A stretch of 64,000 bases of DNA. Source: Sporocytophaga myxococcoides DSM 11118 (GTDB lineage Bacteria > Bacteroidota > Bacteroidia > Cytophagales > Cytophagaceae). The notes under the pieces were generated by a model. That model ran no database searches and was not told the DNA's origin. It saw only the letters and a program-made list of their open reading frames with translations. This document shows positions 44,940 through 52,055 of this stretch, piece after piece. The position numbers and the translations under genes were made by a program. Positions within the stretch are counted from its first letter, which is position 1. Every line of letters starts with the position of its first letter. The stretch lies in NCBI RefSeq assembly GCF_000426725.1, contig NZ_AUFX01000004.1, forward strand, positions 496,001 to 560,000, in the 5' to 3' direction.

Positions 44940-46085
44940 GTGCATATGAAAATCAAAATTTATTTCCTGCTTGTTATTTTTTGTGTTAGCTGTCACAAAG
45001 ACAAAGAGGAAATTTCATTTCCTGGATTTCAACGTTTTTTTGAGCTCCCCTTAAGCTGTCAGGGAGAAATAGCTGCCCTTCAACTGCCGGATGATTCTTA
45101 TTTAATTGCCACAGACAATAAAGAGGGAAATGTATACCTATTAAAGATTTCTAAAGAAGGGAAACCACTAAGCGAAACATCTTTTGGAACACAACAGCCA
45201 GAGGAAGTTAAATCTATTTTCAAAAATGCCAATGGAAATTACATAGTTGCCGGCACCACTATAAACTCAACGAACAATTATATATTCATATGGGAATTTA
45301 ATGACCAGCTTCAGTTAGTTAAAAATTATGGATATGGAGGAGTTTCTTATTTATCGAAGCTGATTTATATAACCGAAACAGCCAAAGCCGGGACATATCT
45401 TTTAGTTGGAGAAATGTCTGTTGAAAAAGGGAAAAAAGTAATTTCTGTAGAGACCGATTTAAAGAATAGCACAACTCCTAAAGAACTTATCATACAGGAT
45501 TTCCGGGAAGGTATCCAATCTGTATTTCAAACACCAAATTCTGAATTACTATGGACAGGATATTTCACGGATGGCAATTTTACTAATATTTCACTCATAA
45601 AATCTGATTTACAATGCAACTTTGATTGGAACCTGAACTATACTTCATTTGACGACAGAAATCAGGTCGGGTATGGCACTATAGCAAATAAGTCCGGAGA
45701 ATTATTTATTTGTGGCTCTAACCAATCAGATCAAACTGGAATCGACTTTTTTATTGCAAAAGCCACTGTTAATGGCAAAAAAATTAAAGAGTACACCTAT
45801 GAACGGCCTACCAATCAATATCCTAAATCCATTATGCAAATGAATGGGGAAATTTTCATTGCAGGATCTACAGAAGAAAACGGGACCCGGGACATCCTGG
45901 TAGTTAAGGCCAATGCCGACCTCATCCCGACCGGGCAAAAAATAATCGGCAGCTCCAGCCATGATGAAGCAAAGTTAATATTGGCGACTGAAGATGGCTC
46001 TCTTCTGCTACTGGCTAAAGTCAGCATTGGGACTGAATGTAAACTTGCTGCTTACAAAATCAAACCAGAAGAAGTACATTTTTAA
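44940..46085 (+). CDS. Surface lipoprotein with beta-propeller-like repeats
   Basis: 381 residues with a lipobox ending at Cys18 (FCVSC). The mature part has repeated units such as LQLPDDSYLIATDNKEGNVYLLKISKEGKPLSETSFG, NGNYIVAGTTINSTNNYIFIWEFND and MNGEIFIAGSTEENGTRDILVVKANADL. These are WD/delta-60-like blades, so a beta propeller is likely. It is just upstream of the sigma factor cassette on the same strand, and it resembles in style the delta-60 protein at 48682, which is a T9SS cargo. Role unknown. Confidence 0.6.
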   Translation: MHMKIKIYFLLVIFCVSCHKDKEEISFPGFQRFFELPLSCQGEIAALQLPDDSYLIATDNKEGNVYLLKISKEGKPLSETSFGTQQPEEVKSIFKNANGNYIVAGTTINSTNNYIFIWEFNDQLQLVKNYGYGGVSYLSKLIYITETAKAGTYLLVGEMSVEKGKKVISVETDLKNSTTPKELIIQDFREGIQSVFQTPNSELLWTGYFTDGNFTNISLIKSDLQCNFDWNLNYTSFDDRNQVGYGTIANKSGELFICGSNQSDQTGIDFFIAKATVNGKKIKEYTYERPTNQYPKSIMQMNGEIFIAGSTEENGTRDILVVKANADLIPTGQKIIGSSSHDEAKLILATEDGSLLLLAKVSIGTECKLAAYKIKPEEVHF

Positions 46086-46121
46086 TCATCTCAATTTTTT
46101 CTCATTAAAAAATGAAAAGTC

Positions 46122-46153
46122 TGTAACATTCAGAACCCTTTATTTGTCTCAGG
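46122..46153 (+). promoter_or_regulatory. Putative ECF sigma promoter in front of the sigma gene
   Basis: TGTAACAT, then TTTGTCTCAGG starting 14 bases after TGTAACA (46143-46153). The same two blocks with the same 14-base spacing occur upstream of the delta-60 gene (48529-48560), while the sequence between them differs. GTAACA- and GTC-type boxes resemble -35 and -10 elements of ECF sigma factors. This suggests autoregulation by the sigma factor encoded next. Confidence 0.65.
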
Positions 46154-46184
46154 TGCTGTTTATCCCAATTTTAGCTGCAATTAA

Positions 46185-46673
46185 TTGAAAATAGAAAAAT
46201 ATAATGAAGCTGTAAAACTCTATTATAACAGACTGTTCTGGTATGTTGCAAAGAGTGCCGATGACAACGATCTAGCCAAAGACATTGTCCAGGATTGCTT
46301 TGCAAAACTGTGGATAGAGAGAAAAAATATAGATGAAAACAAAATAAAACCCTGGTTATTCTCTGTCGCACATAATTCGATGATTAATCATATAAACAGG
46401 CAAAAGAAGTCTGTCCCAATAGAACAGAGTGGATTACATGAACCACAGGTTCCATTTAATTCAGAATTTGAAACCAAAGAAATTATCGAAAAATGCCTGG
46501 AAGGACTTCCTTCAATTCAAAGATCTATTATAATTCTGAAAGACCTTGAAGGGTACGATTATAAAGAAATAGGCAAAATAACAGGGCTAAGTATGGAACA
46601 AGTAAAAGTATACCTATTCCGAGGAAGACAGAAATTAAAAAATTCCATTAAAGAAATAAAACTGTTGTTATGA
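46185..46673 (+). CDS. ECF-type RNA polymerase sigma factor
   Basis: 162 residues from a TTG start; the codon before it is a stop (TAA at 46182) and no ATG exists before the domain. Sigma region 2 (YYNRLFWYVAKSADDNDLAKDIVQDCFAKLWIERKNI, KPWLFSVAHNSMINHINR) and region 4 (LPSIQRSIIILKDLEGYDYKEIGKITGLSMEQVKVYLFRGRQKLK) are both complete. It overlaps the next gene by 4 bases (ATGA). It lies 18 bases past a bipartite motif shared with the cargo gene at 48682, so it probably directs transcription of both. Confidence 0.92.
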   Translation: MKIEKYNEAVKLYYNRLFWYVAKSADDNDLAKDIVQDCFAKLWIERKNIDENKIKPWLFSVAHNSMINHINRQKKSVPIEQSGLHEPQVPFNSEFETKEIIEKCLEGLPSIQRSIIILKDLEGYDYKEIGKITGLSMEQVKVYLFRGRQKLKNSIKEIKLLL

Positions 46674-47464
46674 ATAGCACACAGATAACCCGAGATAATG
46701 TAGAAGAATGGCTTTTTGAATACTGCGAAGGGACTTTGACTAATGCGGAAAAATTGAAAGTCGAAACCTTTATAAGGCAAAATCCGGAATATCAGGAAGA
46801 GTTGGGTTTCTGGAAAGAATCTTATCTTCAGCAATTACCTGTGTCACCTTTGCCACAAGAAGCGCAGCAATTATTAAAAAATAAGTACTTTCATCCGAAG
46901 TCTTCAACGTTACTTAAATACATAGCTGTCCTTTCAGCTTTATCATTCATTCTAATTCTTTATTATAAATCACAAAAGGGTGAAAGCAAAACTCAACAAA
47001 AGGGTTCGGTTAAAACAGAGAAACAGATAAAACATTCTGAAAGCCCTGTATTTTCTGAAAAGACACAACTTGAAAAGATCATAATTGTGAAATCGGATAA
47101 TCCAAAATCAGATATTTTAAACACAAAAATAGTTGAAAGACTTCAGGAGAATAGCTTAAAAGTATCCGACATTCAAATTACTCCCGATTCAGCCACTATT
47201 GAGCCCGGCGATTTATTGCCCGAATTGAACAATGAGATAACAGGAGAAAACACGAAGCTAGCACCAATGGCGAACCCACTCACAGCGGATCATGCAGAAA
47301 AGAAAGTACTTGAAAAAAACAACGTTACTAAAAACAAACTTTCTCCTGCTCAAAGACGAAAGGTTGCCAGGGAAATAAGAAAAGCACAGGACTTGAAAGA
47401 ACAAGAGCAGCTTATGAATGGGAACAAACCCTATATAGTACCATCAGATCAGACAATGCAATAA
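46670..47464 (+). CDS. Putative anti-sigma factor, single-pass membrane protein
   Basis: 264 residues. The N-terminal part (VEEWLFEYCEGTLTNAEKLKVETFIRQNPEYQEELGFWKES, 11-51) looks like the anti-sigma N-terminal domain of Bacteroidota, without the full HxxxCxxC zinc motif. One transmembrane helix lies at about 81-98. The periplasmic part (100-264) is low in complexity, with a basic patch (AQRRKVAREIRKAQD). It overlaps the sigma gene by 4 bases, which fits a sigma/anti-sigma pair. What signal it would sense is unknown. Confidence 0.65.
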   Translation: MNSTQITRDNVEEWLFEYCEGTLTNAEKLKVETFIRQNPEYQEELGFWKESYLQQLPVSPLPQEAQQLLKNKYFHPKSSTLLKYIAVLSALSFILILYYKSQKGESKTQQKGSVKTEKQIKHSESPVFSEKTQLEKIIIVKSDNPKSDILNTKIVERLQENSLKVSDIQITPDSATIEPGDLLPELNNEITGENTKLAPMANPLTADHAEKKVLEKNNVTKNKLSPAQRRKVAREIRKAQDLKEQEQLMNGNKPYIVPSDQTMQ

Positions 47465-47468
47465 ACCA

Positions 47469-48437
47469 ATGAAGTTATTCTTCATCTTAACTTTTGCATT
47501 TATATGCTGCTTTCAAAATTTGCAGGCACAAAGCCAGATTACAGCATTGCCGCTGGAATACAACCCAGCCAATGCAGGCTTCACTGGTGCTGGACGATTA
47601 TCAATATATGCCGGAATAAAGCCTAAATCCAGGAATAGTAATGAATTCCGGATAGGGACAAAATCTTTGTATTCTACAGCTGTATCCTATGATCAGTTCA
47701 TTGAAAAAATCTCCACGGGCATTGGTTTTCAGACAGCTTATATTCAGGAATCCATAACACCTGCTGAATATGAGTATGGATCCTATCTTAATATGGATTA
47801 TGTTCCTGGACATTATAACTCATCCATGAATGGATACAATTTTCTTGCTGCCATCTCTCCGAAAATTTCCTTTCGTGGCAAATATACACTAGCTCCAGGT
47901 TTCAGTTTTGAATACTCTAAACAGACTGTAAATAGTGCGTTTAGTCAACTTTATCTATACCCTGAAGCAAATTACAGTATGGAGAAATACAAATACACTG
48001 TTGGCATTTTACTAAATACAAAAAATTACTACCTGGGCTACTCCTGCCAGGTTTATTATAAATTAAAAGGAAGGTTTAATGAAGTGCATTATCAGACACC
48101 CTACTCTTTATTTCAGGCAGGCTGTGTTCTAAAAAGAAGCAATAAATCCAAGTTCATCTTTACGCCTGCCTTACTTATGAGAGTTAGAAATTTCGATGTT
48201 AGAGGCTATAAAAAACTTTCCCTTCTAATCAATTTAAACTTTAAATACAAAAAAATTATATGGGGAGTAATGCCTGGAATCATGGCCGGTTATCAAGGTG
48301 ATTCTTTTACTATTCAGCTTAACTATGCTCCTGCAAATTTTCAATATTTGTATGACCCTATGGAGCGTTTTAGCAAACAGTTTGAATTAAACATTAAATA
48401 CAGATTATTCAAAAATCATGTCTTGACCTCACATTAA
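47469..48437 (+). CDS. PorP/SprF-family outer-membrane protein
   Basis: 322 residues with a signal peptide (about 1-20, LQA before QSQ). The start EYNPANAGFTGAGRLSIYAGIKP is the PorP/SprF signature, followed by alternating beta strands that suggest a barrel of about 14 strands. PorP/SprF proteins act in type IX secretion and gliding, often as partners of individual large cargo proteins. It begins 4 bases after the anti-sigma gene and is followed by a T9SS cargo gene, so a dedicated secretion partner is plausible. Confidence 0.8.
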   Translation: MKLFFILTFAFICCFQNLQAQSQITALPLEYNPANAGFTGAGRLSIYAGIKPKSRNSNEFRIGTKSLYSTAVSYDQFIEKISTGIGFQTAYIQESITPAEYEYGSYLNMDYVPGHYNSSMNGYNFLAAISPKISFRGKYTLAPGFSFEYSKQTVNSAFSQLYLYPEANYSMEKYKYTVGILLNTKNYYLGYSCQVYYKLKGRFNEVHYQTPYSLFQAGCVLKRSNKSKFIFTPALLMRVRNFDVRGYKKLSLLINLNFKYKKIIWGVMPGIMAGYQGDSFTIQLNYAPANFQYLYDPMERFSKQFELNIKYRLFKNHVLTSH

Positions 48438-48528
48438 TCATAAATCAGAATTACTTTCCGATCTTAAAGCATAAGGCAATACTATAAACTGAAATCATTA
48501 ATTTTTTTTATAAATTTTTTGCATTCTC

Positions 48529-48560
48529 TGTAACATCTCACTGTATTCATTTGTCTCAGG
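48529..48560 (+). promoter_or_regulatory. Second copy of the putative ECF sigma promoter
   Basis: TCTGTAACAT, 13 bases, ATTTGTCTCAGG partly overlaps that block: the elements TGTAACA (48529-48535) and TTTGTCTCAGG (48550-48560) are identical to those at 46122-46153, with the same 14-base spacing. The ATG of the delta-60 gene is 122 bases downstream. Confidence 0.65.
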
Positions 48561-48681
48561 AACTGCCAATCAAGATTATAAAAAATCAGACGGCAAAAAT
48601 AATTTAAACATGTTCTGAACTTCAGCGGGCGCCATCTGAAATCGGGACCATTAGTAAGTTCAAAATTTAATCTGACAAAAA

Positions 48682-50073
48682 ATGAAAAAAATATTAAAAT
48701 CACTATATGTTGTTGCCATCCTAAGTGTTGGCTTAATTACAGAAACATTAGCCCAAAAGAACTGGCTTGATGAATCCTTTGGAAGAAAAGGAATTCTCAG
48801 ATATGATGATTTAACCCTGACAAAAGACTTTGACGAAGCCGCAGCAGTCTATTTGGAAGACAAGCTTTTATTATTAGGGATTGACACTTCCAATAGGGCG
48901 AATGGTTTCACCCTGGTCAGACTGAAAAATGACGGAAGCCCTGACTATTCCTTTATACCAAGGAGAATCATCGAAACTGATTCAACAGATTATTTTTCTC
49001 AAATTCTAGTCACGCCAGACAAAAAAATTGTTCTTTTTGGAATGAAAAATAAGGCGTTACACGAATATGAACATACTATATTAAAGTTTAATCAAAATGG
49101 TTTAGCAGACCAGGGATTTGGCAACAAAGGTTTGGTTACTATTCCACGGGATAAGAATTACATTGAACAGCTCCAATCCGCCATTATACAGTCTGATGGA
49201 AAAATTGTCTTTGCCATAACCTCAATGGATTTGAGAACGACTTATGATGCAGAACTTAAACCAAATAAAATAACTTTCTTCAGACTGAATATTGACGGAA
49301 GTAATGATGGGAGCTTTGGCAATGGGGGTCCGGTTAGTTATGCAATCTCCTATATAAATCCAGAGTTGAGTATGAACCTTCAGCCGGATGGCAAAATACT
49401 GGTTGGAGGAGCCTATACAAAAAACTGGAGCACTAATTCTGCCGCTATCACTCAAATCCGTCTAAATGCAGATGGAAGCTTAGATAAGAGTTTCGCCAAC
49501 AATGGGGCGATTGAAATTTCTTACCATGATTTGGGAATTGATACGACCTCATCAAAAGTTAGATTTGTTCAAAACCCGGTTTTTCTTGATGATAATCAAA
49601 TGATATATACATTGACTGAATGTCCTAATATAGGTTCGTATTCAGATTGTGTTTCAAAAATATACAGACTTAAATCTGATGGCACTCCGGACTTCGATTT
49701 TCAAATAAATTATGATGAGGTAAGCACATTGCCATATGCAGATTATGGATATTCTAAAACTTCTGATAATAATCTTCTTTTGAAAGATGAATTTGGATTT
49801 CGTAAGATAAAGCTAGACCCATCTAAAATTTCGATAGTCGCTAATATACAGAATGAACAAAAGTTTTTATTCAGGCCATTTCCCAATCCGTCAAACGGAA
49901 ACTTTGCTATAGAAAATGCAATGTCGGTTCAACAAGTGGTATTGACGAACAGTTTAGGTCAAATAGAAACCTTTGATGATGCTTCAAATATCCAGACTCA
50001 AATGAAAGGCTTACTCTTTGCAACTGTAAAAACTTCAAATGGCAGTTACAGTTTTAAAGTCGAAGTATTCTGA
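48682..50073 (+). CDS. Delta-60-repeat protein with T9SS sorting domain
   Basis: 463 residues. Signal peptide 1-24 (LAQ). Delta-60 units (about 55 residues each) are seen: LRLKNDGSPDYSF, DGKIVFAITSMDL, RLNIDGSNDGSFGNGG, LQPDGKILVGGAYTKN, RLNADGSLDKSFANNG, RLKSDGTPDFDF. They form a propeller-like domain. The C-terminal 75 residues are a type A sorting domain (FRPFPNPSNGNFAIENA to SYSFKVEVF). Exported to the cell surface by type IX secretion. Its upstream promoter block equals that of the sigma gene. Confidence 0.85.
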   Translation: MKKILKSLYVVAILSVGLITETLAQKNWLDESFGRKGILRYDDLTLTKDFDEAAAVYLEDKLLLLGIDTSNRANGFTLVRLKNDGSPDYSFIPRRIIETDSTDYFSQILVTPDKKIVLFGMKNKALHEYEHTILKFNQNGLADQGFGNKGLVTIPRDKNYIEQLQSAIIQSDGKIVFAITSMDLRTTYDAELKPNKITFFRLNIDGSNDGSFGNGGPVSYAISYINPELSMNLQPDGKILVGGAYTKNWSTNSAAITQIRLNADGSLDKSFANNGAIEISYHDLGIDTTSSKVRFVQNPVFLDDNQMIYTLTECPNIGSYSDCVSKIYRLKSDGTPDFDFQINYDEVSTLPYADYGYSKTSDNNLLLKDEFGFRKIKLDPSKISIVANIQNEQKFLFRPFPNPSNGNFAIENAMSVQQVVLTNSLGQIETFDDASNIQTQMKGLLFATVKTSNGSYSFKVEVF

Positions 50074-50189: not shown

Positions 50190-52055
50190 TTATTGCTTAA
50201 CCAATTTCCCATGCGATATCCCACTGGAATGATGCATCAATATAATGTAACTTCCTTTAGGCAACATATGAATATCTACTTGAGTCCATGCACGTGATGT
50301 GATCACCACATTCCCTAACATATCACAGATATCAATTCTGTTTATATTCATATTCTCAGGATTGTGAATATTCAGATACTCACTTCCAGGATTTGGATAA
50401 AGTAATAAAGACGATTTATCCGCTTTCCCAGGTAAAAAAAGACCCGTGGTCGTACCAAAGAATTCTCTGAAAACTCTTTCAAGGGCGGTATTAATGGTGG
50501 TCGTATCCACAGGCCTATCCCATCCGTCATATAATCCGAATGAAGATTCCTTATAAGAATGGTAGGTGAAATGATATCCAAGACTATCAAAAATATGCAA
50601 TGCGTCTGCAGCCCATCGGTCTCCACCTTTATCATTATTAAAGGTATTTCTGGCTGCGCCAAACTCTCCAAAATACACCGGATAACCTTTGTCCTCTATA
50701 TATTTTGAGTATGCAGTAATTTTCTCCACCAGATATTGATAGTTTCTAGCCCCTAGTGGCGCGTTGGAAGGTGAATTATAAAATTCAGTTGTAATAGATG
50801 CGGTAGCACCTGCTGGGATATTATCACCTTTCATCCAGCCACTTATTACATATTTGTGGCCTTTTGTTACTCTAAAACCAAAATTGGGGCAAATGACAGA
50901 TGCTGCCGCTTTATTTCCGGAGATTGCCACAGAATAATTGTCGTTATGACCAATTGATTTTTCTTCTGAATAAGCCCCTGAGCCATCTGCTGAATACCAC
51001 CAGTATGTGCCGGAAGTAGGATTTACAGAAAAGACGGTTCTGATTTCATTACCATTCTCATCTAGTTCTTTCAGCACAAAATCATCAAAATAAACTTTAC
51101 CTGCTCCTATTTTATTGGACACAAAAACAACCCTCCCCATTAAAATTTCATCGCTTGTTACTGTGAAGGGCTTTCCGGTATAATATTTCCAACCGCTGGT
51201 ACCAGAGCTTATGGAAGGATTGGTGTAGTTTCCGGTAAAATATGTAGCATCAGATGGCGCAGTGATATTATCTTCGTCAGGATACTTTCCCCCATCCCCG
51301 GTATTAGCCCAGTCAAGATTCTGATGAGTAAATTCATAAGGATCATAAAGGTGGACGGTATACATAAGATTTTCTTCCGTAATCTGCGGGTAATTATTGT
51401 TCGCATCGGAATAGCTATAATCACAATTCAATGCTAGAGCTCTTTCTGTCACAATCAGGTGATTGACATCAACGCTCCTTATGCTATCGATAATTTGCTG
51501 AGCAAGGTTGCTCCAGTTTTGAATGCTCCCAGATGGTGTTGGTTCATTCAGAATATCATAAGCTCCGATCTGAGGTTCATCTTTATAACGATCAGCAATT
51601 GCTTTCCAAAGAGCTGAAAGTCGCTTTTGATTTTCAAGGTTTGTCCATAAAGCATCTCCTTTACAAGCTGACTGGTAACCTCCCTGCGGTACATGCATGT
51701 TAAGTATCAGAAAAATACCGTGATTTTTAGCCCATTGCACATTTTTATCTATCCAGTCCCACCCACTTTGTTTATAAGTATAAGGATTAGCATCATCTTC
51801 GAATGTTTTATAGTTTAAATAAAACCGGATGGCATTCATTCCAAGATTATGAACTCGTTGTAAATCAACTTCTGAATGGTGAAGTGAAGGAGACAGGTTA
51901 TCAGAATAAACAACATTACCAAAAGCCATCCCTCTGAGATATATTTCCTCCCCCTTAAATTTGAGTTTTTTGCCTTCTCTTTTTACAAAATCCTGAGAAT
52001 AGGAATTGATGACTACAAGAAATAAGCTTAATGCAAACAGTAATTTTCTTTTCAT
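50190..52055 (-). CDS. GH5 cellulase-like hydrolase with an inserted domain and T9SS sorting domain
   Basis: 621 residues. Signal peptide 1-20. The GH5 barrel runs from about 25 to 245 and resumes at about 435-540. Acid/base is Glu171 in DILNEP and nucleophile Glu464 in YFGEFGA; HLYDPYEF at 235-242 is the usual His/Tyr strand. Between the two catalytic parts are about 150 residues (280-430) that look like a jelly-roll carbohydrate-binding module (VYFDDFVLKE, YVISGWMKGDNIPAG). The last 75 residues are a T9SS sorting domain (LLYPNPGSEYLNIHNPE). It should act outside the cell on a beta-glucan. It lies 119 bases downstream of a membrane AraC regulator. Confidence 0.87.
   Translation of the reverse strand: MKRKLLFALSLFLVVINSYSQDFVKREGKKLKFKGEEIYLRGMAFGNVVYSDNLSPSLHHSEVDLQRVHNLGMNAIRFYLNYKTFEDDANPYTYKQSGWDWIDKNVQWAKNHGIFLILNMHVPQGGYQSACKGDALWTNLENQKRLSALWKAIADRYKDEPQIGAYDILNEPTPSGSIQNWSNLAQQIIDSIRSVDVNHLIVTERALALNCDYSYSDANNNYPQITEENLMYTVHLYDPYEFTHQNLDWANTGDGGKYPDEDNITAPSDATYFTGNYTNPSISSGTSGWKYYTGKPFTVTSDEILMGRVVFVSNKIGAGKVYFDDFVLKELDENGNEIRTVFSVNPTSGTYWWYSADGSGAYSEEKSIGHNDNYSVAISGNKAAASVICPNFGFRVTKGHKYVISGWMKGDNIPAGATASITTEFYNSPSNAPLGARNYQYLVEKITAYSKYIEDKGYPVYFGEFGAARNTFNNDKGGDRWAADALHIFDSLGYHFTYHSYKESSFGLYDGWDRPVDTTTINTALERVFREFFGTTTGLFLPGKADKSSLLLYPNPGSEYLNIHNPENMNINRIDICDMLGNVVITSRAWTQVDIHMLPKGSYIILMHHSSGISHGKLVKQ

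Follow-up and report, generated by a model that had tools for sequence, protein, structure and literature searches.

An ECF sigma gene and a neighbouring delta-60 gene share a predicted two-block promoter in Sporocytophaga myxococcoides: a candidate Dma-type circuit with a separate T9SS-type barrel

Within a 64,000-nucleotide stretch of the genome of Sporocytophaga myxococcoides DSM 11118 (the window; all positions below count from its first base), the gene of an ECF sigma factor and the neighbouring gene of a delta-60 protein carry, as read from the genome sequence, the same predicted two-block promoter, which is found nowhere else in the genome. We consider it likely that the genes behind these two sites form a self-contained ECF circuit, which would be a two-gene version of the Dma type with a barrel of the type IX secretion system (T9SS) type as its sensor. 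To our knowledge, little is known about the regulation of type IX secretion and of gliding-surface proteins in Bacteroidota.

Results

The two copies of the motif lie at 46120-46153 and 48527-48560, exactly where the original prediction had put them, and a comparison within the window sequence found both blocks to be identical. The short form of the motif given there, TGTAACA-N14-TTTGTCTCAG, is correct as written, and the claim that 12 unlike bases separate the blocks holds for the length of the spacer, which is 12 bases, but not for the differing bases, which amount to 10 of the 12. On the forward strand, the first promoter extends over 46122..46148, with a -35 element TGTAAC at 46122-46127, a distance of 18 bp and a -10 element GTC at 46146-46148; the second extends over 48529..48555, with TGTAAC at 48529-48534, again 18 bp, and GTC at 48553-48555. 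According to the open reading frame (ORF) calls, the gene borders around the sites are 46085 and 46185 for the first and 48437 and 48682 for the second, so that both are intergenic.

When the whole genome (6,341,527 bases) was searched for the motif, as had been proposed together with the prediction, TGTAACA-N10..18-TTTGTCTC was present solely at the two sites of the window (control, 0). With up to three mismatches allowed, TGTAACAT-N12-ATTTGTCTCAG was found at six places (reversed control, 2), two of them exact and each intergenic, and four with three mismatches, these four being the intragenic matches, since all of them lie inside ORFs. That the two sites resemble each other by chance, or because a short segment was recently duplicated, can practically be dismissed: the site pattern at up to three mismatches gave 0 matches in 100 shuffles, the spacers and flanks of the two sites differ, and the sites are conserved in relatives.

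Shorter forms of the motif showed no enrichment, neither in this genome (G000; 4 against 13 in the reversed control) nor when 17 genomes were pooled (43 against 58). Genome-wide enrichment of such forms was rejected as a regulon signal because the reversed control was not exceeded, and the signal is thus the position of the sites and not their number. A match in another genome (G001) that recurs at five identical places resembles a mobile repeat and was excluded from the regulon. Predictions of sigma-70 promoters and of terminators were equal to the shuffle mean and were likewise discarded.

The sigma/anti-sigma/PorP-like cassette that had been claimed to lie between the sites was recovered as an ECF sigma factor, an anti-sigma factor with one predicted transmembrane (TM) helix and a FadL-type barrel, and the delta-60 protein was found as well. 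The sigma gene (46185..46673, forward strand) encodes the sigma regions 2 and 4 that define an ECF sigma factor, with PF08281 (4e-16), PF04542 (2e-11) and TIGR02937 (87.6 bits against a cut-off of 42.9) all above their cut-offs. It begins with TTG at 46185, and the same TTG is found in both congeners described below. Upstream of the first site lies a lipoprotein-like gene (44946..46085, forward strand; ATG at 44946, called from a GTG at 44940) with weak delta-60 similarity (TIGR02608 6e-5, below the cut-off and tested from base 44967), which is kept in both congeners and is probably outside the sigma transcript.

Behind the second site, the gene at 48682..50073 (forward strand) encodes the delta-60 beta-propeller protein (TIGR02608 9e-35; PF17164 over its cut-off). 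It had been described as a secreted cargo of the T9SS; the delta-60 assignment stands, but the sorting domain, a weak one of type A at residues 400-460, stays under both curated cut-offs (TIGR04183, 22.4 bits against 23; a second curated model, 20.9 against 27). The genome encodes SprA and thus has a T9SS. The stretch between site and cargo gene (48561..48681, forward strand), a putative leader of the cargo mRNA in which no gene is called, is strongly conserved in three species, beyond the DNA upstream of the site; as an RNA element it was rejected, with no match in Rfam and an ordinary fold (z -0.9). Convergent with the cargo gene, on the reverse strand at 50190-52055, lies a gene for a GH5 cellulase that includes a carbohydrate-binding domain; its type A sorting domain scores over the cut-off, and no copy of the site motif was found 5' of the gene.

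The cassette is present in two congeneric genomes, Sporocytophaga MAGs (L111 and L112), and both sites are kept in both. Across these two and the window, TGTAACAT is invariant at both sites, as are TTATTTGTCTCAGGTGCTG at the first site and ATTTGTCTCAGG at the second. The DNA directly upstream of the sites is more variable in the three genomes, but the leader 3' of the second site is not, and conservation there thus does not single out this site. In L112 (identical with L049), the barrel ORF ends early and several neighbouring genes are broken, which makes a sequencing error likely.

A first set of relatives comprised the loci of 22 out of 26 sigma matches; the four omitted were those with the weakest similarity (E 5e-20 to 1.5e-19). 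In 16 of the 22, the pattern TGTAAC-N16..19-GTC, searched within 160 bp, lies 46 to 75 bases 5' of the sigma start; in three (L079, L080, L081) it precedes a same-direction gene upstream of the sigma gene, and in three (L082, L085, L087) it is absent. A second set of 80 loci, which overlaps with the first at eight places, was fetched by similarity of the sigma protein alone. The same pattern, fixed beforehand, was found at most 300 bp from the sigma gene in 30 of these loci (reversed, 0; expected, 0.72). After loci in which anti-sigma and barrel are fused had shown mostly GTT for GTC, the pattern was widened post hoc to GTY, and this variant was found at most 150 bp from the sigma gene in 74 of the 80 (reversed, 0; shuffle mean 0.46, maximum 3), a count that is partly fitted because the widening followed inspection of the loci. 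Among the six loci without it, L141, L151 and L187 show TGTAACTTTT and then TTGTATTA.

The -35 block is nearly constant across the relatives, whereas the -10 block is specific to the sigma group, with GTC prevailing among the split loci, GTT among the fused ones and CGTC in a third group, as is expected if each sigma factor reads its own promoter. This observation bears on the alternative that both sites are read by a different ECF sigma factor or by some other DNA-binding regulator, and that the adjacent sigma factor is merely one of its targets. The genome holds 23 further ECF-like matches, so that a different sigma factor could read the sites, which we count against our own explanation; moreover, TGTAAC...CGTC also stands upstream of one further ECF gene in the genome (L038/L227), so that the -35 block is shared. 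Against this stand the group-specific -10 block and the fact that the exact sites are unique to the cassette of the window, and we hold it to be very improbable that another regulator is at work. Autoregulation from a predicted ECF promoter, in a circuit of two promoters, is well supported: a bipartite promoter, the hallmark of an ECF autoregulon, stands ahead of the sigma factor's own gene, and the conservation of the two-block pattern ahead of the sigma genes of relatives bears out the original reading of the sites as ECF promoters.

Second sites were also found in other genomes. In a genome from another family (G066, locus L083), one site lies 49 bp 5' of the gene of a 741-residue protein and another ahead of the sigma gene of the same locus; in this protein, PF18962 (4.3e-9) marks a sorting domain and PF07494 a propeller repeat, and the arrangement of the locus parallels, at the level of predicted domains, that of the window. 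A scan of the 80 loci revealed nine sites that do not front the sigma gene; two of these, in L111 and L112, correspond to the second site of the window. Four others, in L154, L157, L168 and L189, precede the gene after the anti-sigma gene (the one in L154 overlaps the end of the anti-sigma ORF), and we read the genes behind these four sites as putative barrels. No ORF was called close 3' of the sites in L130 and L131, and the site in L136 is on the opposite strand, within the sigma gene. A site in G002 (L197) lies ahead of a lipoprotein-like gene that is followed, as judged by eye, by a PorP-like ORF, and two sites in G121 precede a TonB-receptor-like gene (L195, PF07715) and a gene resembling an OMP barrel (L205, PF13505, below the cut-off). 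The other genome-wide matches that were inspected are intragenic, precede other genes or no gene, or belong to the G001 repeat.

The anti-sigma gene (46670..47464, forward strand) encodes an N-terminal domain, a predicted TM helix at residues 79-97, a tether of 153 residues and a tail, GNKPYIVP, at residues 251-258. The part between the TM helix and the tail is no more than a linker whose sequence varies except at its conserved end. The tail is invariant across the 11 rows of alignment A4, which were drawn from the nearer loci. A tail of the form PY.VP occurs in 12 of 21 separate anti-sigma factors, and none of the 44 fused ones has it; the other nine separate proteins, all from farther loci, have different ends, which we count against the explanation that we prefer. 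A TM helix with a mean hydropathy of at least 1.6 is predicted for each of 11 split proteins and for 38 of the 44 fused ones.

The gene that follows (47469..48437, forward strand) encodes the PorP-like outer-membrane barrel as a separate protein. Its identification as PorP-like, which goes back to the original prediction, holds for the FadL-type fold, seen in a barrel model of only moderate confidence, and for the relatives, since in its alignment of 15 rows 10 match TIGR03519 and two match PF11751 at E ≤0.1; the window protein itself, however, matches neither of these PorP/SprF models. A sequence-profile search of the barrels against solved structures gave no match at E 0.1.

Anti-sigma factor and barrel are combined in 44 of the 80 loci, where one ORF of 480 residues or more follows the sigma gene. 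PorP_SprF (PF11751) is matched by 38 of these 44 fused proteins at E ≤0.001. In profile comparisons, the N-terminus of the fused proteins was matched by the separate anti-sigma factors (prob 98.9, E 1.5e-17) and the C-terminal half by the separate barrels (prob 99.8, E 1.6e-28). Four of the 80 loci have no second ORF called, and L145 is broken; in L085, which belongs to the first set of 22, no barrel is found directly behind the anti-sigma gene. In L117 and L118, genes for a protein of about 800 residues and for a lipoprotein-like protein precede the fused sigma operon (about -3450 to -170 of sigma), and by eye they resemble a TonB-dependent receptor pair. A tree of the sigma factors was built with 93 rows; its labels reflect the length and place of the ORFs, the 13 rows that had been added were classed as split en bloc, and the root was set at the midpoint. 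In this tree, a branch with 99/90 support separates the 44 fused loci and four of unknown state from 24 rows labelled as split and having PorP, 20 rows that have a shorter anti-sigma factor of another kind and one row of unknown state. This topology suits a single event of fusion or fission.

Elsewhere in the same genome, there are 30 hits to TIGR03519 at E ≤0.001, the barrel of the window not being among them. Eight regions were selected for a PorP-family hit near an ECF-like match, such that the barrels beside their cassettes are present by choice, and they hold nine sigma/anti-sigma pairs. In seven of the nine, the anti-sigma factor has 365-384 residues and ends in a stretch resembling CHU_C, the T9SS type B signal, with scores over the cut-off of 27 in two (35.1 and 37.5 bits), exactly 27.0 in one and below it in four. 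These seven cassettes are located in G000 at L227 (3860-4960 and 15564-16715), L229, L230, L231, L232 and L233; the CHU_C-like domain is absent from the pairs in L226 and L228. The one PorP-family gene of these regions that was tested against Pfam matched PF11751 (2.8e-30). In the part of the source available to us, an association of PorP-like proteins with CTD proteins of type B is reported (PMC9143113). An anti-sigma factor with a type B-like tail beside a PorP-like barrel would fit the same scheme as in the window, with a different joint.

The tail and the barrel also have to be weighed under the assumption of an ECF circuit that is autoregulated but involves no signalling by the barrel. 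The PorP-like protein would then be the anchor partner of the secreted protein, and the anti-sigma factor would sense by means of its own periplasmic part. The accessible text on type B CTD proteins indeed describes PorP-like proteins as their anchors (PMC9143113), the operon alone would explain co-expression, and the divergence of the tail in nine of the 21 split loci points the same way. However, related loci fuse the anti-sigma factor to a PorP/SprF barrel, the anti-sigma factor of the window has between TM helix and tail only the variable linker with its conserved end, and the tail of the window's cargo is of weak type A and not of type B. On balance, we regard a circuit in which the barrel does not signal as rather unlikely.

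Discussion

Signalling from the barrel to the sigma factor is likely, as inferred from the fused relatives and from the conserved tail, and it could take the following form. The adjacent sigma factor would read both promoters and thereby activate its own gene as well as those of the anti-sigma factor, the barrel and the secreted protein. The anti-sigma factor would keep the sigma factor at the inner membrane, its tether of about 150 residues would span the periplasm, and the PorP-like barrel would retain the conserved tail at the outer membrane. A change in the state of the barrel, when a T9SS partner or a surface ligand binds or leaves, would cause the anti-sigma factor to be released or cut, and the sigma factor would be freed. 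The barrel would in this way report the state of the surface or of secretion.

Dma systems were reportedly first described in PNAS in 2024. Dma proteins consist of an anti-sigma domain, a TM helix, a disordered tether and a barrel, in that order, with an ECF21 sigma factor adjoining, and for the Dma/Das systems of Bacteroides thetaiotaomicron the available part of the source reports effects on vesicles and on glycan-use loci (PMC13088901); PorP has 0 occurrences in the main text of this paper. The fused relatives of the window cassette share with these systems the ECF sigma factor and the order of N-terminal domain, TM helix, tether and barrel. The predicted anti-sigma factor of the window likewise has the N-terminal anti-sigma domain, the TM helix and the long tether, but the barrel that Dma proteins carry at the C-terminus of the same polypeptide is encoded by a separate gene, and the window protein was not filed as Dma because the barrel is not in the same chain. 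Further differences are that its tether ends in a conserved tail, that its barrel is PorP-like and hence of the T9SS type, and that the predicted regulon includes a secreted protein of T9SS type. By analogy, the anti-sigma factor and barrel of the window most likely work like Dma. The original prediction had missed this link between anti-sigma factor and PorP barrel, which we infer to be Dma-like.

In the FecI/FecR/FecA system, a TonB-dependent receptor with a signalling domain forms the outer-membrane barrel that signals to the anti-sigma factor and from there to the ECF sigma factor. The route from an outer-membrane barrel to an inner-membrane anti-sigma factor and an ECF sigma factor would be the same in the window, which differs from Fec in its barrel, of the FadL type and not a TonB-dependent receptor, and in its short peptide tail.

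Two systems with a tie to the T9SS are also of relevance here. SigP of Porphyromonas gingivalis is, according to the text accessible to us, an autoregulated ECF sigma factor tied to the T9SS that is driven by PorXY, and the CTD protein PorA is put forward there as the relay of a surface signal (PMC7712824). The likeness to the window lies in an autoregulated ECF sigma factor with a connection to the T9SS; as far as that text goes, however, SigP is under two-component control and acts on genes of the secretion machine, whereas the window has an anti-sigma factor and a local, predicted regulon of two promoters. In Flavobacterium psychrophilum, the set SM6 joins T9SS genes and a sigma/anti-sigma pair by ECF-type promoters, as described in the accessible portion of the report (PMC9723704). 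This set is wider than that of the window and has a CGT -10 box, and the portion of the text at hand names no PorP-like barrel with its pair. In the literature searched, which was light on subscription papers and in which the spelling with a slash was possibly missed, no paper was found that pairs PorP/SprF with an anti-sigma factor, and SprF was paired with one in the F. psychrophilum paper only.

We tentatively propose, as a possibility that reaches beyond this locus, that FadL barrels of the T9SS type act, across Bacteroidota, as surface sensors to which ECF sigma factors are coupled. Their anti-sigma factors would be joined to the barrel by fusion (mainly in Flavobacteriales), by a short conserved peptide tail (in Cytophagales, including the window) or by a C-terminal type B signal domain of their own, for which the seven cassettes beside PorP-like genes in this genome would be the examples, such that the state of secretion or of the surface might be wired straight to transcription. 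The cassette of the window offers a small and testable model for this, namely a two-promoter regulon in which a sensor candidate, an anti-sigma factor and a target adjoin one another. If it is true that the barrel talks to the anti-sigma factor, the numerous PorP-like proteins of this genome would gain a role in signalling beside their role in anchoring.
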